Shown in pieces: positions 35,364 to 44,802 of a DNA stretch of 63,828 nt (within the stretch, counting starts at the first letter, position 1; each line of letters opens with the position of its first letter). The notes under the pieces are model-generated. The model was not told the origin of the DNA and did no database searches. It saw only the letters and a list, made by a program, of their open reading frames with translations. This stretch comes from Actinomycetes bacterium (GTDB taxonomy: Bacteria; Actinomycetota; Acidimicrobiia; Acidimicrobiales; RAAP-2): the NCBI GenBank assembly GCA_021793515.1, contig JAJYSP010000015.1, positions 1 through 63,828 of the forward strand, given 5' to 3'. Made by a program: the position numbers and the translations under genes.

Positions 35364-35981
35364 ATGGACGAATCGACGGTCATCTGGAGTGGCGCCGACC
35401 TGGAGGTCCACCGGGTCGTGGTCGGACCACTCGCCAACAACGTCTACGTCCTGCGGTGTCGCCGCTCGGCGCTAGCGGTGTTAATAGACGCCGCCGACGA
35501 GTCCGAGCGGCTCGTGCGCCTGGCGGACGCGCTCGGCGTGGTCACCGTGCTCGAGACCCACGGACACCACGACCACGTGGGCGCGATCCCCGCGTTGCGC
35601 GCGTCAGGTCGCCTCGTCTGGGGTCACCCCGAGGACGTCGCGCTATTCCCCGCCCTTGACCGGCACCTCGCGCACGACCAGGTGATCGAGGTGGGCGAGT
35701 TGCGCGTGCGGGTCATCCACACCCCGGGGCACACACCGGGCTCCACCTGTTTCTTCGTCGAGGGGAGCCCCGTGCTCTTCAGCGGCGACACTCTGTTTCC
35801 CGGTGGACCTGGTGCCACCGCCTACGAGGGCGGCGACTTCCCCACGATCATCGTCTCGATCGACCAACAACTGTTCCATCGCTTCAGCGACGACGTGCTC
35901 GTCCTGCCCGGTCACGGTGCCCCCACGACCATCGGCGCCGAACGTTCGCACCTCGACGACTGGATCGCACGGGGCTGGTGA
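35364..35981 (+). CDS. Metallo-beta-lactamase-fold hydrolase (glyoxalase II-like)
   Basis: A 205-residue MBL protein with the binuclear metal motifs THGHHDHVG (about 64-72), HTPGHTPGS (about 114), FSGDTLFP and LPGHG. Length and pattern fit small glyoxalase II-like thioesterases or similar hydrolases. Start ATG 35364, 90 bp from the divergent acyl-CoA dehydrogenase. It lies 38 bp ahead of sufC and could be transcribed with it; no functional tie to Fe-S assembly is evident. Confidence 0.85.
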   Translation: MDESTVIWSGADLEVHRVVVGPLANNVYVLRCRRSALAVLIDAADESERLVRLADALGVVTVLETHGHHDHVGAIPALRASGRLVWGHPEDVALFPALDRHLAHDQVIEVGELRVRVIHTPGHTPGSTCFFVEGSPVLFSGDTLFPGGPGATAYEGGDFPTIIVSIDQQLFHRFSDDVLVLPGHGAPTTIGAERSHLDDWIARGW

Positions 35982-36019: not shown

Positions 36020-36778
36020 GTGTCTGTGCCCTTGCTAGAACTTCGAAACGTCCACGCCGTCGCCGAGGATACCGTCATCTTGCGCGGCGTCGATCTCACC
36101 ATCAACCCCGGCGAGGTCCACGCGCTGATGGGGCCCAACGGAGCAGGTAAATCGACCCTGGCGAGCGTCGTCATGGGTCACCCCGGCTATCGCGTCACCG
36201 ACGGGCAGATCCTGCTCAACGGCGTCGACATCGCGACGTGGTCCCCCGATCAGCGGGCCCGGGCCGGCATCTTTCTCGCCTTCCAGTACCCCGAGGCCAT
36301 CAGTGGCGTCTCGGTGATCCAGTTCCTGCGCCAGGCCATGGTGGCCCGCAAGGGTCTCAGTGAGCTGTCGGTGCTCGAGGTACGACTCGAGCTTGCTGAA
36401 TGGATGGACCGACTGGGCATGGACCCGGCGTTCGCAGAGCGACACCTGAACGACGGCTTCTCGGGGGGCGAGCGCAAGCGCAACGAAGTGCTGCAGATGG
36501 CCCTGCTCGAACCTGTCGTCGCGCTGCTCGATGAGACCGACTCGGGGCTCGACATTGACGCATTACGTATCGTGGCGCGCGGTGTGCGCACCGTACGGAG
36601 CGAACACCCGGCGATGGGTGTCGTGGTGGTGACCCACTACGTCAAACTGCTCGAAGAGATCGAGCCCGACCAGGTCCACATCCTCGTCGATGGACAGATC
36701 GTGCACAGTGGCGGTGTCGAGCTCGCCGCCGCCATCGAACACGACGGCTACGACGCGTGGCGAACGGTTCTGCGATGA
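36020..36778 (+). CDS. sufC: Fe-S assembly ATPase SufC, copy 1
   Basis: SufC is the ATPase of the SufBCD scaffold. This 252-residue copy has Walker A GPNGAGKST (38-46), the SufC-type Q-loop LAFQYPEAISGV, the signature FSGGERKRNEVLQMALL (147 on) and Walker B LLDETDSGLD with Glu172. It is close to the canonical SufC pattern. The sufS ATG overlaps its stop (ATGA), so it is translated with sufS and sufU. A second, different SufC lies at 39847. GTG start. Confidence 0.94.
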   Translation: MSVPLLELRNVHAVAEDTVILRGVDLTINPGEVHALMGPNGAGKSTLASVVMGHPGYRVTDGQILLNGVDIATWSPDQRARAGIFLAFQYPEAISGVSVIQFLRQAMVARKGLSELSVLEVRLELAEWMDRLGMDPAFAERHLNDGFSGGERKRNEVLQMALLEPVVALLDETDSGLDIDALRIVARGVRTVRSEHPAMGVVVVTHYVKLLEEIEPDQVHILVDGQIVHSGGVELAAAIEHDGYDAWRTVLR

Positions 36779-38010
36779 GCTCCTACAATCCGCGCCGGGT
36801 GCGCGTGGACACCCCACTCCTCGAGCGCGTGATCAACGGTCGTCCGATTACCTACCTCGACTCTGCCTCCTCCACCTTGCCCCCGCGACCCGTTATCGAG
36901 GCGATGGCGCGCTACTACGAGTTGAGACACGCCAACGTGCACCGCGGCGTCTACCAGACCGCCGTCGAGGCGACTGACGTCTACGAGGGCGCGCGAGCGG
37001 CCACCGCACGGTTCATCAACGCACCGCAGGGCATGGACGAGGTCGTCTTCACCAAGAACACGACCGAGTCGTTCAATCTTCTCGCCAAGTCGTGGGGCGC
37101 GGCGAATCTCAAGGCGGGCGACGTGGTCCTCGTAACCGAGATGGAGCACCACGCCAACATCGTTCCGTGGTTCCAGCTACGCGACCAGACCGGCATCGAG
37201 GTTCGTTTCGTACCGGTGAGCGACGACTTCCGCCTTGACGTGAGCGACCTCGACCGTCTGCTCGACGGTGTCAAGCTGTTCTCCTTCACCGCCGCTTCCA
37301 ACGTCCTGGGCACGCGTAATCCGGTCAAAGAGTTGACCCGGATCGCCCACGACCACGGCGCCCTCGTCGCTCTCGACGCCGCCCAGTCCGTCGGCCATCA
37401 ACCGACCGATGTCGTGGACCTCGACGTCGACTTCTTCTGCTTCTCCGCCCACAAGATGCTGGGGCCGACGGGACTGGGCGTGTTCTGGACGCGCGCCGCG
37501 ATCCTCGAGTCCATGCCCCCCTTCCTCGGCGGCGGCGGCATGATCGCCGACGTGCGACGCGATGGGTACGTACCAGCAGACGGCCCGACCCGCTTCGAGG
37601 CCGGCACCCCACCGATTGCCGAGACGGCCGGCCTCACGGCCGCCATCCGGTATCTCGAGGGCCTCGGACTCGCCAACATCGCCCGCCACGAGGACGAGCT
37701 CACCGGCGACGCACTCAAGCGACTCGCCAACGAGTTCGACGGCCGCGTCCGGGTCATCGGACCGGCGGACACCGTCGATCGCGGCGGTGTCCTGAGCCTG
37801 GACGTCGATGGGGTCCACCCCCACGACGTCGCTCAGGTGCTGGACCAGTTCGGCGTGTGCGTGCGACCCGGACACCATTGCGCCAAGCCCCTCATGCGCC
37901 GGTTCAACCTCGCGGCGACAGCGCGGGCGTCCTTCGGGCCATATTCACTGACTTCGGACACCGACGTCCTGCTCGAAGCGCTGGGCAGTGCCGTCACGAT
38001 GTTTGCCTAG
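36775..38010 (+). CDS. sufS: Cysteine desulfurase SufS
   Basis: SufS takes sulfur from cysteine as a persulfide. The 411-residue PLP enzyme has Lys227 (FSAHKMLG) for the cofactor and Cys369 in RPGHHCAKPL as the persulfide carrier, typical of type II desulfurases. ATG 36775 overlaps the sufC stop (ATGA). sufU, its usual sulfur acceptor, follows 3 bases later. Confidence 0.95.
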   Translation: MSSYNPRRVRVDTPLLERVINGRPITYLDSASSTLPPRPVIEAMARYYELRHANVHRGVYQTAVEATDVYEGARAATARFINAPQGMDEVVFTKNTTESFNLLAKSWGAANLKAGDVVLVTEMEHHANIVPWFQLRDQTGIEVRFVPVSDDFRLDVSDLDRLLDGVKLFSFTAASNVLGTRNPVKELTRIAHDHGALVALDAAQSVGHQPTDVVDLDVDFFCFSAHKMLGPTGLGVFWTRAAILESMPPFLGGGGMIADVRRDGYVPADGPTRFEAGTPPIAETAGLTAAIRYLEGLGLANIARHEDELTGDALKRLANEFDGRVRVIGPADTVDRGGVLSLDVDGVHPHDVAQVLDQFGVCVRPGHHCAKPLMRRFNLAATARASFGPYSLTSDTDVLLEALGSAVTMFA

Positions 38011-38013
38011 ACC

Positions 38014-38496
38014 ATGGCCAACCTCGACGACCTGTACCGCGAGATCATCCTCGACCACTACCGCACCCCGCGCAATCGCGGCGAGCTCAGTTCCCCACCC
38101 GCGATCCGAACCGAGGGCTTCAACCCGCTCTGTGGCGACGAGCTCGTCATCTACCTCGACATCCAAGACGACGTGCTCGTGGACATCAAGCTCTCGGGGC
38201 ACGGCTGCTCGATCTCCCAGGCGTCGTCGTCGATGATGAGTGCCGCGGTCAAGGGCAAGACCATCGACGAGGTGCGCGCCGCCATCGAACGGTTCAAGCA
38301 GTTGATGACCGTGCACGAGACGACCCTCGACGGCAATGGCGAGGCGCCCGTCGCCGACTTACGCACGATGGGCGAACTCGCCGCACTCCAGGGGGTCGTG
38401 AAATTCCCGGTTCGCATCAAGTGCGCCACGCTGGCTTGGAACACGCTCAGCCAGGGGCTCGACGACTACGGCGTACAGGGCACCGGGTCGAAGTAG
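38014..38496 (+). CDS. sufU: Zinc-dependent sulfurtransferase SufU
   Basis: SufU receives sulfur from SufS and passes it to SufBCD. The 160-residue protein has the zinc ligands Cys40 (NPLCGD, with Asp42), Cys65 (GHGCSIS) and Cys137 (RIKCATLAW), and the insertion between the second and third Cys that separates SufU from IscU. Its tail overlaps the convergent LCP gene by 31 bp. No sufT (DUF59) gene follows, unlike in many actinobacteria. Confidence 0.95.
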   Translation: MANLDDLYREIILDHYRTPRNRGELSSPPAIRTEGFNPLCGDELVIYLDIQDDVLVDIKLSGHGCSISQASSSMMSAAVKGKTIDEVRAAIERFKQLMTVHETTLDGNGEAPVADLRTMGELAALQGVVKFPVRIKCATLAWNTLSQGLDDYGVQGTGSK

Positions 38497-39821
38497 GGAA
38501 CCACCGCCGTCGGGTTGACCGGACTCTTTGTCGCGGTCGAAGTTGTGGTCTTAGTGGTCGAACTAGTCGCTCGGGTGGTTGACGCCGAAGCGATCGTGGT
38601 CGTAGTGGTGGTCGTTGCGACCACCGGGGGCATTGGCGTCTGCAGCTGGGCGTTGGGCGGCGGATTAGTCGGCGTGAGCAACGATGAACCGAAGATGTTG
38701 ACGAGCAGCTGCTGGGCCTGGGGCTCTTCGGTGAAGAGCACGTCACCGACGGGCGCCACGGTCGCGGGGACGGTCGGCAGGGTGTAGGTCAGCATGCTCG
38801 ACGGATTGAAGTTGTGGAACTTGACGGCGAAGGCAATTAGCTCATTGAGCGTGAAGCCGCTGTCGAGGGTGATGCCTTGGGGGATCTTGGAGAGGAACGT
38901 GTTGATCGTCAACGGGTTGTAGAGGCTCTTCGCTCGACTGATCATCGCGCGTAAGAAGACGTTCTGACGATCGATCCGGCCGAAGTCACTCGTGCCGTCG
39001 TAATTCCACACCCCGTTCTGGAACCACTGGTAGTGACGGCTTCGCGCGACCGCGAGCGCCTGGAAGCCGGTGACGAGCTGACAGCCCGCGTGGGGAATGT
39101 TCAGCCCCGAGTACGCGTCCTTCGCGGGATAGGGGAAGTCGAGATAGACCCCGCCGATCGCGTCGGCGGCGTTGATGAGACCGGCGAAGCTCACCTGGAT
39201 GACGTGGTTGATCGGTATGCCGAAGTTCGCCGTGATCGTCTGGGCGAGCAGGGACGGGCCGTTGCCGTAGTTGACGTTGATGCGGTTGAACTTGCCGAAG
39301 AGGGCCTGGTTGGCGAGCAGGGTGACCATCGTGTCGCGCGGTATCGAGAGGATTGTGATCGTGTCGGCCGCCGGGTCGACGTGCATGATCTTGACGACGT
39401 CGCTGCGCTGGCCGGCGACGGAATTGGTCGATGCACCCGTCTGACGAGCGACAGCGCCGGTCAACCCCGCTCGAGAGTCCGAACCGATCTCGAGGATGTT
39501 AAAGGGCCTCCCCGAGAGCTGGGGCAGTTCACCGACCACGTTGACCTTCGGGATCTGGCCGAAACGCCACTGGGCGTAGAGGTAGCCACCACCGACCAAC
39601 GCGATGAGCAGGCCGAGGACCACGACACCCGAGATGATCGCGATCCGGCGTCCCCGGTGGCGCCGACGAACCTTGGGTGCGCGCACCGGACGAGACGGGT
39701 CCGCCCGTTGTTCGACCGCTTGTCCGAGGGCGCGGAGCCGCTCTTCGTTCGCGAGTGAGCCCTTCGCCTCGGATCGTCGGTTCCCGCGGCCCCGCGAGGC
39801 GCTATGACGTCCGTCAGCCAT
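38466..39821 (-). CDS. LytR-CpsA-Psr (LCP) family glycopolymer transferase
   Basis: LCP proteins attach secondary polymers to peptidoglycan (arabinogalactan in actinobacteria with mycolates). The 451-residue protein has a basic cytoplasmic N-terminus (about 1-58), one TM helix (about 60-84), and the extracellular LCP domain with GSDSRAG, RSDVVKIMHVD, SIPRDTMV, KFNRINVNYG and DFGRIDRQNVFL. The C-terminal region (about 390-440) is almost all Thr/Ser/Ala, a likely wall-spanning linker. It lies between the two suf pieces and is convergent with sufU. Confidence 0.92.
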   Translation of the reverse strand: MADGRHSASRGRGNRRSEAKGSLANEERLRALGQAVEQRADPSRPVRAPKVRRRHRGRRIAIISGVVVLGLLIALVGGGYLYAQWRFGQIPKVNVVGELPQLSGRPFNILEIGSDSRAGLTGAVARQTGASTNSVAGQRSDVVKIMHVDPAADTITILSIPRDTMVTLLANQALFGKFNRINVNYGNGPSLLAQTITANFGIPINHVIQVSFAGLINAADAIGGVYLDFPYPAKDAYSGLNIPHAGCQLVTGFQALAVARSRHYQWFQNGVWNYDGTSDFGRIDRQNVFLRAMISRAKSLYNPLTINTFLSKIPQGITLDSGFTLNELIAFAVKFHNFNPSSMLTYTLPTVPATVAPVGDVLFTEEPQAQQLLVNIFGSSLLTPTNPPPNAQLQTPMPPVVATTTTTTTIASASTTRATSSTTKTTTSTATKSPVNPTAVVPYFDPVPCTP

Positions 39822-39846
39822 CGGTCAACTGTACTCCGCGGCCTCG

Positions 39847-40575
39847 TTACAGCGGATTGAGTTCGCGGAACGGCTCATAGCCGTCACGCTCGAGGACCTC
39901 GGAGAGTTCAGGACCACCGGTGGCCACGACTCGTCCCCCGCTCACGACGTGGATCATCGTCGGCGTTAGCTCCTGGAGGAGTCGTCGGAAGTGGGTAATC
40001 GCGAGTACGCCGCAACCCCACTCGGTGGTGGACGCCGCCAGGCGTCGTGCGACCGCGCCGAGCGCGTCGACGTCGAGACCCGAGTCGATCTCGTCGAGCA
40101 CCGCGAAGCGCGGACGTAGGACCCCGAACTGGACCATCTCGGCACGCTTGCGTTCGCCACCCGACAGGTCCACGTTCACGAAGCGTTCCAGTAGGTCCGG
40201 GCGCAGGTCGACTCGCCGGGCCTCGTCAGCCATCCGACCGAGCAAGCCAGCGGGTTCGGCGCCCGCGGCCGCGAGTACGTCGATGAGCCGCACGCCCGGT
40301 ACCTCCATGGGCTGCTGCATCGCGAGGAAGAGCCCGGCGCGTACGCGGTCGGTGGCCGAGAGCGAGAGCAGCTCCACGTCGTCGATCATCACCGAGCCGG
40401 CGAGGACTTCGTAGGCGGGGTGGCCCGAAAGCGCGTGGGCGAGGGTGGACTTACCCGAGCCGTTGGGGCCCATGATCACGTGAACCTCGCCCGAGTGCAT
40501 GGTCAGGTCGAAGCCCCGCAGGACTTCCGTACCGCCCACCGCCACACGCAGGCCCGCAATCGTCAAGGTCGTCAT
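39847..40575 (-). CDS. sufC: Fe-S assembly ATPase SufC, copy 2
   Basis: A second SufC, 242 residues, with Walker A GPNGSGKST (36-44), LSGGERKRAEMVQF (137 on) and Walker B VLDEIDSGLD with Glu162. It differs from copy 1 in the Q-loop region (LAMQQPMEVPGV rather than LAFQYP) and signature helix, so it is not a recent duplicate. It lies in the sufD-Rieske-sufC operon; its ATG overlaps the Rieske stop (ATGA). Both copies keep the catalytic Glu, so both may be active ATPases of one SufBCD-type scaffold. Confidence 0.92.
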   Translation of the reverse strand: MTTLTIAGLRVAVGGTEVLRGFDLTMHSGEVHVIMGPNGSGKSTLAHALSGHPAYEVLAGSVMIDDVELLSLSATDRVRAGLFLAMQQPMEVPGVRLIDVLAAAGAEPAGLLGRMADEARRVDLRPDLLERFVNVDLSGGERKRAEMVQFGVLRPRFAVLDEIDSGLDVDALGAVARRLAASTTEWGCGVLAITHFRRLLQELTPTMIHVVSGGRVVATGGPELSEVLERDGYEPFRELNPL

Positions 40576-40886
40576 GGGAAAGTCACCTCCACCCGTCCAT
40601 CGCGCACCACGACGTCATATCGAGCGACCGGTCGGGTCGCGGGGAACGACTGGGGGGTACCGTCCTTGAGGTCGAAGATGGCGCCGTGTCGTGCGCACTC
40701 GATAGTGGCGTCAGTCGCGTCGACCTCTCCCTGGGCGAGGCTGTAATCCTCATGGCTGCATCGGTCGTCGAGCACGTAGAAGTCATCCTCGATACGAACG
40801 ATGACCAGCGTCCTTGGTCCGATGCGGACCTGGCGAGCCTCGCCACTGACGTACTCGTCGACGGCACCGACATCCTGGGCACTCAC
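40572..40886 (-). CDS. Rieske 2Fe-2S ferredoxin-like protein
   Basis: A 104-residue single-domain Rieske protein with ligands Cys43/His45 (DRCSHED) and Cys64/His67 (ECARHG). It is the type of ferredoxin subunit found between sufD and sufC in Streptomyces and related actinobacteria, where an electron-transfer role in cluster assembly is assumed but not proven. It overlaps both neighbours (GTGA with sufD, ATGA with sufC), so the three are produced together. Confidence 0.93.
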   Translation of the reverse strand: MSAQDVGAVDEYVSGEARQVRIGPRTLVIVRIEDDFYVLDDRCSHEDYSLAQGEVDATDATIECARHGAIFDLKDGTPQSFPATRPVARYDVVVRDGRVEVTFP

Positions 40887-42121
40887 GCGCTCACCGGCAC
40901 TGATGCCAGTGCGAGGGATACGTCACCCTCGACCAAGCGGGCGAGCGACTTCGGGAGGGCGTCGAGCATCTCGAGGAAGAAGCCCTGAATCATCAGTCGC
41001 TCGGCGTCGGCGCGCGTCACGCCGCGCGATTCGAGGTACCAACGCTGCAGTGCGTCGAGTGGACCCACGCTCGACGCGTGCGCGCACACGACGTCGTTCT
41101 CTCGGATGTCGAGATTCGGCACGCTGTCGGCGTGCGCGTTCGCCGAGAGCAGCAGGTTGTGATTGGTCTGGCGCGCGTCCGTACGCTTGGCACCCTTCTC
41201 GATCTCGATCAACCCGGTGTACACCGATCGCGAGGTGTCCGCGACAGCCCCCTTTGAGAGCAGCGTCGAGCGGGTTCGAGGAGCCTGGTGAAACTGGTGG
41301 GTGCGGAAGTCGTGCACCTGGGCACCAGAACCGAAGAACGTGGTGCGAAGCTCGTTCTCCGCACCCGTCGCCAGTAGTTCTGCGTCGTTGCGCGAGCGGT
41401 CGTAGTGGGCACCCATGCCGAGCACCGCCTGGCTGAGTCGCGCGTCGCGCTCGAGCAGGCCGGTCGTTCGCGCCACGTGCCACGTAGTCGGTGCCAGTCG
41501 CTGGTAGGTGACGAGCCGTAGTGACGCATGCTCGGCGACACGGTACTCACTCACCGGCACGACGATGGCTCCGTCGCCCCCTTCGTAGTACTCGACCACG
41601 GTGGCGTTCGCACCGCGTTCGAGGACCAGGTGTGTGCGCGGCAACGACGCCGATGCGTTCGCCGAGTGGACGATCACGATCGGACCGTCGACAACCGTGC
41701 CCGCCGAGACCGTCACCACGACCGTCGCGGGGCACAGCGCGGCGTTAGCCAGGGCGAAGGCGTCGTTCGCGTACCGCTCGAGGGGGTCATCGCCACCGAG
41801 CGTCGACTGCGTGGTGTCCACATCGACCGTCACACCGGCGACCGGGTCGCCGATGTCCACGAGAAAGCCGTCCACCACTCGCACGACGCTCGCAGCCAAG
41901 GACGACAGGGACTCGGCGAAATCCGACGAGGGAGCGAGCGTCGGCGTCGCGGGCACGAGGTAGCGGTCGAGATCGAGTTCGGACAAGGGCGCGTAGCGCC
42001 ACACCTCGTCGGCGGTGGTGGGCAGCCCGAGGGACTCAAAACCGGACCACGCCCGACCACGAGGGCCCGAATCCGGTCGGCTACTGATGAATGAGGTGGC
42101 GGATTCGGTGAAGGTTGTCAT
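40883..42121 (-). CDS. sufD: Fe-S scaffold subunit SufD
   Basis: SufD pairs with SufB in the SufBCD scaffold. The 412-residue protein has the parallel beta-helix core of the SufB/SufD family and the C-terminal segment around DLDIRENDVVCAHASSVG-like residues (about 345-360), with the conserved His after a Cys. It starts at ATG and leads the operon with the Rieske gene and sufC copy 2. The 79-bp gap to the divergent enoyl-CoA hydratase gene should hold both promoters. sufB is separated from it by that gene. Confidence 0.92.
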   Translation of the reverse strand: MTTFTESATSFISSRPDSGPRGRAWSGFESLGLPTTADEVWRYAPLSELDLDRYLVPATPTLAPSSDFAESLSSLAASVVRVVDGFLVDIGDPVAGVTVDVDTTQSTLGGDDPLERYANDAFALANAALCPATVVVTVSAGTVVDGPIVIVHSANASASLPRTHLVLERGANATVVEYYEGGDGAIVVPVSEYRVAEHASLRLVTYQRLAPTTWHVARTTGLLERDARLSQAVLGMGAHYDRSRNDAELLATGAENELRTTFFGSGAQVHDFRTHQFHQAPRTRSTLLSKGAVADTSRSVYTGLIEIEKGAKRTDARQTNHNLLLSANAHADSVPNLDIRENDVVCAHASSVGPLDALQRWYLESRGVTRADAERLMIQGFFLEMLDALPKSLARLVEGDVSLALASVPVSA

Positions 42122-42200
42122 AGTCGAGAGCGTTAGCAGTGTAATGGGACCGATGACGCGGTCGATCCCCCGTTAACCTTCGACCGAGCAAGGAGACGAT

Positions 42201-43016
42201 ATGGAGTTCACCTCAACGGTCCTCACACTCGAGCTGCGTGGCGAGGTGGCCACACTCTGGCTCGACCGAGCCGAGCAACGCAACGCCATGGGTCGTGCGT
42301 TCTGGGAGGACCTCCCGCGCGCGGCCGCAGCACTTCGCGCCGAGCCGGGCGTGCGCGCACTCGTCATCGCCGCGCGGGGCCCGCACTTCACCGTCGGACT
42401 CGACCTGAAGGAGATGGCGGGCGGCCTGCTTTCGGGTGGCGACTCGACGTCACCGGCCGAACGCAACGCCACGCGCTACGAGGCCGTGCGCACGATGCAG
42501 CGTGCCATCAGCTCGATCGCCGAACTACCTTTCCCGGTCATCGCCGCGGTGCACGGCTACTGCATCGGGGGCGGCGTCGACTTGATCTGCGCGTGTGACA
42601 TCCGACTGGCCGCGAGCTCGGCGACCTTCTCGGTGCGCGAAACCAAGGTCGCGATCGTCGCCGACTTGGGCACGCTCCAGCGCCTGCCACGCATCATCGG
42701 AGCTGGTCACGTCGCCGAATTGGCGTACACGGGCATGGACGTCGACGCTGAGCGCGCGGCGGCCATCGGGCTCGTCAACCACGTAAGTGACGACGTGATC
42801 GCTGACGCCGCGGCGCTCGCCGAGCGCATCGCGGCCAACTCGCCACTCGCGGTAAAGGGCACCAAGGCAGTCCTCGCCGCGAACGACGGACGCACCGTCG
42901 CTGAGGGGTTGGAATTCGTCGCGAACTGGAACACGCTCTATCTGCGCAGTGACGACCTCGCCGAGGCGATGAACGCCTTCCTCGAACGTCGCGAACCCAC
43001 GTTCATCGGTCGTTAG
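42201..43016 (+). CDS. Enoyl-CoA hydratase/isomerase, dienoyl-CoA isomerase-like
   Basis: The 271-residue crotonase-fold protein has the oxyanion segments FTVGLDLKEM and VHGYCIGGGVDLICACD. The segment after it, RETKVAIVADLGTLQRLPRI, matches delta3,5-delta2,4-dienoyl-CoA isomerase, which uses a Glu and an Asp eight residues apart, and both are present here. It would help beta-oxidation of odd-position double bonds. It has a strong AAGGAG ribosome site. It sits alone on the plus strand between sufD and the sufB unit, and its stop overlaps that of the four-Cys gene. Confidence 0.85.
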   Translation: MEFTSTVLTLELRGEVATLWLDRAEQRNAMGRAFWEDLPRAAAALRAEPGVRALVIAARGPHFTVGLDLKEMAGGLLSGGDSTSPAERNATRYEAVRTMQRAISSIAELPFPVIAAVHGYCIGGGVDLICACDIRLAASSATFSVRETKVAIVADLGTLQRLPRIIGAGHVAELAYTGMDVDAERAAAIGLVNHVSDDVIADAAALAERIAANSPLAVKGTKAVLAANDGRTVAEGLEFVANWNTLYLRSDDLAEAMNAFLERREPTFIGR

Positions 43017-43366
43017 CGACGCCAGAACCGCCAGTTGCGACGCCTGCGGCGTTCCTGTTCGTCGATCTCGCGCCGTCGCTCGTTGACGAGCTCGGGCGCG
43101 ACGGCGTTCACGATCTCACTGGCTCGCTCGAGCAGGGCTCGTCGATCGTCGATTGGCACGTCGGTGGTGGGCAGTGCCTCGACCGGTCGATCGACCAGGG
43201 AGCCGTGTGCCCATCCGACGTCGGCGAGGCGGCGCTCGAAGGTGACACACCCCTCCGGACACGACCATGGCTGGTCTGGCGCGTTGCCCAAGACACAGAA
43301 CCTCGCGACCTCGCCGGAGTTATACGTTCGACTCTGAAAGTGCTTACACTCCTCGCGCATCGCCAC
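43013..43366 (-). CDS. Four-cysteine protein linked to sufB
   Basis: A 117-residue protein I cannot assign to a family. Its N-terminal third has four cysteines, Cys7, Cys24, Cys36 and Cys40 (ECKHF, RFCVLG, WSCPEGC), a spacing that could bind a zinc ion or Fe-S cluster. The rest is charged and ends in a very basic tail (RRRRNWRFWRR). GTG start with GGAAGGA seven bases upstream; ATG two codons later is possible. It lies 35 bp after sufB in the same direction, so a role in Fe-S assembly is a fair guess only. Confidence 0.75.
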   Translation of the reverse strand: MAMREECKHFQSRTYNSGEVARFCVLGNAPDQPWSCPEGCVTFERRLADVGWAHGSLVDRPVEALPTTDVPIDDRRALLERASEIVNAVAPELVNERRREIDEQERRRRRNWRFWRR

Positions 43367-43401
43367 GGGTTCATCCTTCCACGAGTCTCGAGGCTAAACC
43401 G

Positions 43402-44802
43402 TCAGCCGACGGAGCCTTCCATCTGCAACTCGATGAGGCGCGACCATTCGACGGCGTACTCCATAGGCAGCGTCCGCGTGACCGGCTCGATGAACCCGTT
43501 AACGATCATGCCCATCGCTTGGCTCTCGGTCAGGCCGCGGCTCATGAGGTAGAACAACTGGTCGTCGCCGATCTTGGAGACGGTCGCCTCATGCCCGATC
43601 GAGGCGTCCTGTTCGCCGACCTCCATGTAGGGCCTGGTCTCCGAGGTCGAGAACTCATCGAGGATCAACGCGTCACAGCGCACGAAACTCTTGGCCCCGG
43701 TCGCACCCTCTTCCACCTTCACCAGTCCGCGGTAGGCCGTTAGCCCCCCGTCCTTGGAGATCGACTTGGAGATGATCGTCGAGGTCGTCTCGGGGGCCAC
43801 GTGGACCATCTTCGCCCCAGCGTCTTGGACCTGTCCGGGACCCGCGTACGCCACCGACAAGACCTCGCCCGATGCCTTTGGACCCATGAGGTAGACCGAC
43901 GGGTACTTCATCGTCAATCGCGAGCCGATGTTGCCGTCAATCCATTCGACGTGCGCCTCAGCCTCAGCACGAGCCCGCTTGGTCACCAGGTTGTAGACGT
44001 TGTTCGACCAGTTCTGGATCGTCGTGTAGGTGATCCGCGATCCCGGCAGGGCTACCAGCTCGACGACCGCCGAGTGCAGCGAGTCTGACGAGTACACGGG
44101 CGCCGAGCAACCCTCGACGTAGTGGACCTGGGACCCCTCGTCGGCGATGATCAGCGTGCGCTCGAACTGTCCCATGTTTTCGGTGTTGATTCGGAAGTAC
44201 GCCTGCAGCGGCTGGTCAACCTTCACCCCCGGCGGTACGTAGATGAACGACCCACCACTCCAGACCGCCGAGTTAAGCGCCGCGAACTTGTTGTCGTTGG
44301 GCGGGATGACGGTGCCGAAGTACTTACGCACCAGGTCGGGGTACTCGCGTACCGCCGTGTCCATGTCACAGAACAGCACCCCGAGACGCTCGAGGTCCTC
44401 ACGATTGCGGTGAAAGACGACCTCGGATTCGTACTGGGCCGTGACGCCGGCGAGGTACTTCCGTTCGGCCTCGGGGATGCCGAGTCGCTCGTAGGTCGTC
44501 TTGATGGCGTCGGGCAGGTCCTCCCACCGGTCGACCCGGTTCTCGGTCGGCTTGATGTAGTAGTAGATGTCGTTGAAGTCGAGGTCTGGCATGCGGTCTG
44601 CGAACCACGGCAACATGGGCTTCTTCTCAAAGCGCTTGAGCGCGGCAAGACGGAAGTCGCGCATCCACGGCTCCTCATTCTTGATCCCCGACATTTCGCG
44701 CACGATCGCTTCGTTGATACCCTTCTTGGGCTTGAAGACGGGAATCTGCTCGTCAGACCAGCCCAGCTGGTACCGACTGAAGTCCAAGTTGTCGATCGTC
44801 AT
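43402..44802 (-). CDS. sufB: Fe-S scaffold subunit SufB
   Basis: SufB is the main scaffold on which the 4Fe-4S cluster is built. The 466-residue protein has the family motifs VPPGVKVDQPLQAYFRIN, HYVEGCSAP (with the conserved Cys that takes part in sulfur transfer), IQNWSNNVYN and the C-terminal ISKSISKDGG and CDALILDEFSTSETRPY. ATG start after AGAGGAG. It heads a two-gene unit with the four-Cys protein and is divergent from ptrB (83 bp). Confidence 0.96.
   Translation of the reverse strand: MTIDNLDFSRYQLGWSDEQIPVFKPKKGINEAIVREMSGIKNEEPWMRDFRLAALKRFEKKPMLPWFADRMPDLDFNDIYYYIKPTENRVDRWEDLPDAIKTTYERLGIPEAERKYLAGVTAQYESEVVFHRNREDLERLGVLFCDMDTAVREYPDLVRKYFGTVIPPNDNKFAALNSAVWSGGSFIYVPPGVKVDQPLQAYFRINTENMGQFERTLIIADEGSQVHYVEGCSAPVYSSDSLHSAVVELVALPGSRITYTTIQNWSNNVYNLVTKRARAEAEAHVEWIDGNIGSRLTMKYPSVYLMGPKASGEVLSVAYAGPGQVQDAGAKMVHVAPETTSTIISKSISKDGGLTAYRGLVKVEEGATGAKSFVRCDALILDEFSTSETRPYMEVGEQDASIGHEATVSKIGDDQLFYLMSRGLTESQAMGMIVNGFIEPVTRTLPMEYAVEWSRLIELQMEGSVG

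Follow-up and report, generated by a model that had tools for sequence, protein, structure and literature searches.

Two diverged SufC ATPases kept with one SufB and one SufD across most sampled Acidimicrobiia

A 63,828-nucleotide stretch forming contig JAJYSP010000015.1 (assembly GCA_021793515.1; Acidimicrobiia, Acidimicrobiales), hereafter the window, carries a split suf locus in which two sufC genes, copy 1 (C1) and copy 2 (C2), accompany one sufB and one sufD. Both copies were found to be SufC ATPases that are old in the class Acidimicrobiia, kept together, catalytically complete, and lost or degraded under a foreign scaffold in the genomes read. Most sampled members of the class seem to possess a cluster machine with two different, long-kept versions of SufC, a subunit for which relatives outside the class use one gene, and the two copies very probably serve one scaffold. 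The reading preferred here, put at about even odds, is an asymmetric scaffold with SufB-C1 and SufD-C2 pairing around a heterodimeric ATP sandwich. In a more far-reaching form, given a probability of roughly 0.4, C1 and C2 would form a class-wide obligate heterodimer with C1 on SufB and C2 on SufD and with labor divided between the ATP sites, residue 172 (Escherichia coli numbering, used throughout) setting side-specific resting states. The suf genes of the window are listed below.

36020 to 36778, + strand: sufC copy 1 (C1), 252 amino acids, GTG start, clade C1; TIGR01978, 314.4 bits (cut-off 212.8)
36775 to 38010, + strand: sufS, cysteine desulfurase, ATG at 36775 in an ATGA overlap with C1; TIGR01979, 489.5 bits (cut-off 475.1)
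38014 to 38496, + strand: sufU, sulfur transfer protein; TIGR01994, 144.8 bits (cut-off 92.5)
39847 to 40575, - strand: sufC copy 2 (C2), 242 amino acids, clade C2; TIGR01978, 234.4 bits (cut-off 212.8); model best matches the SufC chain of E. coli SufBCD
40572 to 40886, - strand: Rieske-type ferredoxin gene between sufD and C2; highest-scoring NCBIfam family that of a dioxygenase ferredoxin subunit, at 82.5 bits under the cut-off of 113
40883 to 42121, - strand: sufD; TIGR01981, 213.7 bits, slightly below the cut-off of 222; PF01458 match; phmmer match to PDB SufD, E value 9e-33
43402 to 44802, - strand: sufB; TIGR01980, 682.7 bits (cut-off 346.4); equivalents of E. coli C254, C405, H433, and E434 present

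Thus, sufC1-sufS-sufU on the + strand faces sufC2-Rieske-sufD on the - strand, with sufB farther out and separate. C2 is joined to the Rieske gene by an ATGA overlap and the Rieske gene to sufD by a GTGA overlap. An earlier note, made from the window's sequence alone, had proposed two distinct SufC proteins in a split locus, ATGA overlaps linking C1 to sufS and C2 to the Rieske-sufD group with sufB apart, and Walker motifs and the catalytic Glu kept in both copies. The coordinates and sequences agree with it on each point: both copies are intact and exceed the NCBIfam SufC equivalog cut-off (TIGR01978, 212.8 bits), and they are 43% identical over 231 aligned columns. All the SufC residues looked for (Walker A Lys40, Q85, signature SGGE, K152, E171, D173, and H203) were present. 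In the source genome (2.38 Mb, 43 contigs, 97.65% complete), C1 and C2 were the only two SufC sequences, with no third above the TIGR01978 cut-off, and the SUFBD-core genes likewise numbered two, sufB and sufD. The window SufD has a Cys and a His aligned with the E. coli Cys-x-His, numbered C358 and H360 in papers. The locus therefore encodes one SufB and one SufD with the residues of a SufBC2D scaffold, but two diverged sufC genes in place of two subunits from one gene.

The set resembles E. coli SufBC2D (PDB 5awf) in having SufB, SufD, and SufC, in all tested SufC catalytic residues, and in the SufB C254/C405/H433/E434 and SufD C358/H360 equivalents. It differs in that the E. coli suf operon has one sufC, whereas two diverged ones lie in separate gene groups here. 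The same genes make up the actinobacterial sufB-sufD-Rieske-sufC-sufS-sufU operon, whose D-Rieske-C and C-S-U orders are both kept; however, that operon mostly has a single SufC at the junction, while here C2 ends one half and C1 starts the other, convergent half.

Predicted structures placed both copies closest in fold to SufC. The C2 model (mean predicted local distance difference test score [pLDDT], 89.1) best matched complexed E. coli SufC (5awf_C; template modeling [TM] score, 0.87; root mean square deviation [rmsd], 2.1) and matched free E. coli SufC (2d3w_C) more poorly (rmsd, 3.8). For the C1 model (mean pLDDT, 83.7), the best match by E value was free Thermus thermophilus SufC (2d2f; TM score by query length, 0.85; rmsd, 2.5), with complexed SufC about equally close in rmsd. 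This division into free-like and complexed-like matches is given little weight. The helix following the Q-loop spans 13 residues in the C1 model and 7 in the C2 model, with low confidence just before the C1 helix.

The two-SufC state is class-wide and not a local oddity. Among 149 Acidimicrobiia genomes of at least 90% completeness, 126 gave two SufC matches, 20 gave one, and 3 gave three; the type of the second copy was read for part of these genomes, and incomplete genes may be among the matches. At an E value of 1e-38 or better against the SufC model, the 61 near relatives comprised 56 with two matches, four with one, and one with none. A phylum sample contained 13 class members, 12 with two SufC sequences; its 136 genomes from outside the class comprised 119 with one, 1 with two, and 16 with none. 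Among the three-copy genomes, G130 and G192 have a foreign set in addition to the native pair, whereas in G128 the third SufC is of actinobacterial type and adjoins sufS. When C2 was matched against named loci, 42 of the 80 recovered were titled Acidimicrobiia, Acidimicrobiales, or Acidimicrobiaceae and 1 Microthrixaceae, the rest being 26 unspecified actinobacteria, 5 Acidobacteria, 1 Saccharibacteria, and 5 Chloroflexota, these last being distant SufC sequences of 43 to 44% identity. Two isolated cases were also recorded. An actinobacterium outside the class (G225, locus L125) has the layout C-B-D-Rieske-C-S-U, with one sufC before sufB and one after the Rieske gene; its copies fall in different places in the tree among other actinobacterial SufC, apparently an independent case. 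In G194, a SufC-like match (G194:C12:51693-52388) has one TGA counted inside it.

Gene order was also nearly constant. Loci holding both copies numbered 117, two of them duplicates; 65 belong to named records, and the 52 taken from genomes with G numbers span 36 families. These counts use gene-context labels, and the loci are not independent species samples. The C1-sufS-sufU and sufD-Rieske-C2 groups were convergent in 116 of the 117 (114 of 115 distinct loci). The sole locus read with both copies on one strand, L055 of genome G073, has a C2 on a very long branch, yet without deviation at 14 catalytic positions. C2 was present in 125/125 class loci holding sufD and the Rieske gene, and C1 in 139/141 class loci with sufS and without a foreign set; at the two exceptions (L162 and L184), a contig end cuts sufS itself. 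Matched stretches of the Rieske gene and C2 lay no more than 60 nucleotides apart in 122/127 loci, as did those of C1 and sufS in 131/138. Within the fetched stretches, 25 loci showed C1 without C2 and 12 showed C2 without C1, mislabeled strays included. Among 20 outgroup loci read, 12 had the order D-Rieske-C-S-U or D-C-S-U, and 11 had the Rieske gene between sufD and sufC. Because of these outgroup orders, the class layout looks like an ancestral D-Rieske-C-S-U order that was probably split, with one SufC on each half.

The phylogeny supported two separate lineages. In a tree of 136 rows labeled by gene context alone, C1 and C2 formed separate groups throughout the class. A more careful tree of 61 rows gave supports of 100/99 for C2 and 89/60 for C1, with C1 near other actinobacterial SufC, beside a Chloroflexota row, and C2 on a long branch. 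Mean column divergence from other actinobacterial SufC was 0.185 for C1 and 0.231 for C2.

Both copies also retain complete catalytic residues. Fourteen strict catalytic positions were identical to those of E. coli SufC in 137 C1 and 125 C2 sequences (262 in all); badly decayed copies would escape this count, as the sets were preselected at 140 bits or more to the window C1 or C2 and at least 200 amino acids. The ratio of nonsynonymous to synonymous substitution rates (dN/dS) was at or below 0.15 for both copies wherever dS was estimable (19 close pairs), showing both to be under purifying selection. It might be argued that one copy is redundant and in the course of being lost, as C2 is shorter and more divergent and the L055 C2 lies on a very long branch. 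Such a reading is barely credible, given both-copy loci in 36 families, invariant catalytic residues, low dN/dS, and near-equal tree lengths (15.9 for C1 and 15.7 for C2). The refuting conditions of the earlier note that sequences could address did not go against it: both copies are SufC, and neither was found to decay where the native scaffold remains. In heterodimeric ATP-binding cassette (ABC) ATPases, TAP1/TAP2 for example, two different nucleotide-binding subunits are paired, often with one degenerate site. The pairing of different subunits would be alike here, but no degenerate site was found, both copies being complete.

The genomes with a single SufC were informative about what the native copies do. 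In five (G055, G085, G151, G068, and G126), no SufC is intact except one within a foreign sufB-C-D operon, which in G126 runs off the contig so that SufB alone stands beside SufC. The five foreign SufC sequences included in the careful tree formed one group (support, 100/99). None of the five genomes showed an intact C1 or C2 of the native kind. The earlier note had suggested that C1 might instead couple ATP use to SufS/SufU. ATP use would then be linked to sulfur mobilization and not to the scaffold, and the ATGA overlap with sufS in the window and the position of C1 next to sufS in most loci would suit such a role. However, SufS was retained in all five genomes. C1 was absent beside sufS at the sufS loci of G055, G068, and G126; in G151, sufS is kept at a contig edge and no further SufC was found in the genome at an E value of 1e-30. 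In G085, a single-contig genome with full-length sufU and sufS, the leftover C1 beside sufS (L236, 9226 to 9999, - strand) is an open frame in which the Walker A motif, the signature, the Gln of the Q-loop, the His of the H-loop, and the catalytic Glu are no longer present. Since all five have foreign sufBCD genes and keep SufS without an intact C1, the role of C1 appears to lie with the scaffold and not with SufS/SufU, and the sulfur-coupling role is very improbable.

The leftover SufB of G085 (L236, 2086 to 3144, + strand) is likewise an open frame, in which the C405 and E434 equivalents are Thr and His, so that the sequences of its native C1 and SufB suggest decay or repurposing. Native SufD and C2 were not found in the G085 genome, nor was the Rieske gene at the locus. 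By SufC scores alone, three members of its family (G342, G357, and G350) have one foreign-type SufC, another (G338) has three SufC matches, and G370, of the same genus as G085, has two with native-type scores. Because they are lost or degraded in the foreign-scaffold genomes, the native copies look dispensable only where another scaffold is present.

Among the other 15 single-copy genomes of the class sample, no intact native locus with one copy was found. Six with C2 only (G051, G113, G179, G115, G178, and G152) gave no SufS match at an E value of 1e-50. Of five with C1 only, G134, G147, and G184 had no SUFBD match, and G177 and G075 had one each, a SufB. C2 is broken by a run of 100 N in G132 and runs off the contig in G157; G149 has its SufS cut by a contig end beyond which C1 would lie; and G173 has a SufC fragment of uncertain type at a contig end, with neither SufS nor SUFBD. 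This pattern fits missing assembly pieces, with true loss possible case by case.

These observations bear on a reading in which SufB-SufD takes up either a pair of C1 or a pair of C2 according to conditions, the copies being regulatory alternatives expressed from two operons. The separate convergent gene groups and the complete catalytic sites of both copies, through which each homodimer could work, are compatible with it. Condition-specific alternatives should, however, be lost more often, and no intact native one-copy locus was seen; the 15 genomes above also lack the neighbors of the missing copy or show a contig end or an N gap. Furthermore, a SufD helix motif that is shared with SufB in other Actinomycetota has changed in the class while that of SufB has not. 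Interchangeable homodimers are therefore considered unlikely.

Differences between the copies were sought in sets that leave out context strays (outgroup L126, L127, and L133 labeled as C1, and L120 as C2), the second actinobacterial-type copy of G128 (L107), and the L114 copy in the C2 position ("Cstd"). Of the Q-loop difference claimed in the earlier note, the Tyr/Gln pair did not hold up as a marker, since Tyr also occurs in 43/125 C2 sequences; other sites did prove diagnostic. Residue 172 is Thr in 137/137 C1 and Ile, Leu, or Val in 125/125 C2; residue 187 is Gly in 137/137 C1 and 0/125 C2; and residue 88 is Glu or Gln in 136/137 C1 and 0/125 C2. Type-specific sites were enriched at positions 71 to 143 (16 of the top 30, P = 0.0008; Mann-Whitney P = 7.6e-5) and weakly at the narrower 71 to 112, boundaries of our own assignment (8 of 30, P = 0.049; Mann-Whitney P = 0.09). 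Fixed differences cluster within the Q-loop region and directly behind it. Compared with the SufC of other actinobacteria, the derived positions are 97, 98, 100, 145, 146, 172, and 187 in C2 and 88, 118, 122, 125, and 127 in C1. These C1 changes speak against C1 being a generic subunit on both sides while C2 is a SufD-specific ATPase that tunes the complex without being obligatory, as do the presence of C2 in every class locus with sufD and the Rieske gene and its dN/dS, as low as that of C1. A generic C1 would agree with its lower divergence from other actinobacterial SufC, but is judged improbable.

On the partner side, an LFYL motif is common to SufB and SufD in the SufC-binding C-terminal domain of other Actinomycetota. 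Class SufB keeps it, and the SufD helix motif is changed: residue 360 is Arg in 96/122 class loci and Leu in 16/19 outgroup sequences, residue 364 is Glu in 106/122 and Met in 8/19, respectively, and residue 354 is Pro in 121/122 and 3/19, respectively; the 19 outgroup sequences include two from minimal-type loci with a single SufB/D gene. A motif changed in SufD and kept in SufB would fit C2 sitting on SufD and C1 on SufB. The SufB-SufD C-terminal identity relative to the core was lower in the class (difference, 0.05) than in other actinobacteria (0.10), but says little because the C-terminal identity itself is 0.30 both in the class and in foreign sets with one SufC. A charge swap linking residue 88 of C1 to residue 444 of SufB was considered and dropped: three deeper class members keep Glu444, and their families already have Glu88 in C1 (four examples checked).

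Several results weigh against the dedicated heterodimer. Class SufB is also changed in its C-terminal domain, at 435, 442, 444, 453, and 454, so the change is not confined to SufD; the SufD changes are incomplete in the deeper families; and SufD is in general fast evolving (tree length, 24.5 versus 7.0 for SufB). Inside the class, no covariation was seen between residue 360 of SufD and residue 97 of C2. Rate covariation among C1, C2, SufB, SufD, SufS, SufU, and the Rieske protein (56 genomes, 109 branches) was 0.34 for C1-C2, 0.26 for SufB-C1, 0.22 for SufB-C2, 0.33 for SufD-C2, and 0.30 for SufD-C1, which did not separate the C1-SufB/C2-SufD assignment from its reverse (0.63 of bootstraps). 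Raw distance correlations over 27 genomes, shared ancestry included, tended toward SufB-C1 (0.67, versus 0.52 for SufB-C2) and SufD-C2 (0.82, versus 0.77 for SufD-C1), but SufD-SufS was even higher (0.84). Column covariation (83 loci, about 31 effective sequences) yielded equally strong pairs with SufS and SufU. In the free tree, moreover, C1 and C2 were not sisters; a single C1-plus-C2 clade was not rejected (approximately unbiased test, p-AU 0.26), so an origin of both by one duplication is possible on sequence grounds. Finally, one kind of SufC is reported to serve both sides in E. coli (PMC5571166), so specialization is not needed for function. The asymmetric SufB-C1-C2-SufD complex of the earlier note agrees with the retention of two copies, the invariant sites, the Q-loop-region differences, and the SufD motif change, whereas covariation did not separate its assignment of partners.

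Under the dedicated-heterodimer reading, SufC was probably duplicated in place at or before the base of Acidimicrobiia, within an ancestral operon of the order sufB-sufD-Rieske-sufC-sufS-sufU; the half with C1, sufS, and sufU would later have become convergent to the sufD-Rieske-C2 half. A single SUF scaffold of SufB and SufD would then carry two dedicated SufC paralogs in place of two copies of one SufC. ATPase activity is expected of both, with C2, whose gene is coupled to sufD, sitting on SufD and C1 on SufB; ATP binding would bring them into a head-to-tail C1-C2 heterodimer, opening the SufB-SufD interface for cluster assembly. Residue 172 lies between two acidic residues that help keep SufC latent, so that its change may alter latency in C2. 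In E. coli, SufC ATPase activity is reported to be raised about 180-fold by SufB and 5-fold by SufD (PMC6006206). As the two sides are thus already unequal, specialized subunits could be favored after a duplication.

Other reported cases of more than one SufC differ in their partners. Paenibacillus polymyxa, with a second sufC2D2B2 set, and Methanosarcina acetivorans, with sufC1B1 and sufC2B2, also have more than one SufC per genome (PMC8038749, PMC10500019), but there each extra SufC is reported with its own SufB (and SufD), whereas here one SufB and one SufD are there for both. The same holds for the multi-SufC cases in the parts seen of all the sources consulted (PMC6006206, PMC5571166, PMC12584684, PMC10500019, PMC9628965, PMC8038749, PMC12192291): the extra SufC brings its own SufB. 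In Methanocaldococcus jannaschii SmsC2B2, a SufC-like dimer sits on a SufB-like dimer, and the SmsC dimer is asymmetric with cluster bound; there, however, the reported asymmetry is between identical subunits, without SufD (PMC12192291). A survey of acidophiles predicts sufBCDSU for acidophilic Actinobacteria and mentions no second SufC in its available sections (PMC9628965). Searches of the open literature on SufC paralogs, a second sufC, and duplication returned no description of dedicated SufC paralogs among the matches listed; this agrees with the earlier note, which knew of no such system. No paper on sufC in Acidimicrobiia was found in the open literature.

The known SufBC2D draws both of its SufC subunits from one gene. 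A SufC mutation there hits the SufB and SufD sides together, and site-specific jobs are hard to test. If the dedicated-heterodimer reading is true, there would be one gene per side, each ATP site could be inactivated alone, and the two sides could be studied separately. A homodimer of ABC ATPases would apparently have become a heterodimer across a whole class, with complete catalytic residues in both copies.

Two further genes of the window neighbor the suf genes. The first lies immediately downstream of sufB:

43013 to 43366, - strand: 117-amino-acid four-cysteine protein, family unassigned

Neither Pfam nor NCBIfam gave a match to it. Homologs were present in 95 of the fetched loci, with Cys 7, 24, 36, and 40 invariant in 95/95 aligned sequences, and lie between sufB and sufD in 82/82 loci holding both; the protein is therefore linked to the suf locus. 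It is directly downstream of sufB in 43/85 loci with sufB, C1, and C2, and is retained in three loci from genomes with a foreign scaffold. The second, a metallo-beta-lactamase-fold gene (35364 to 35981, + strand), ends 38 nucleotides upstream of C1, and a homolog is found directly upstream on the same strand in 70/139 C1-labeled loci.

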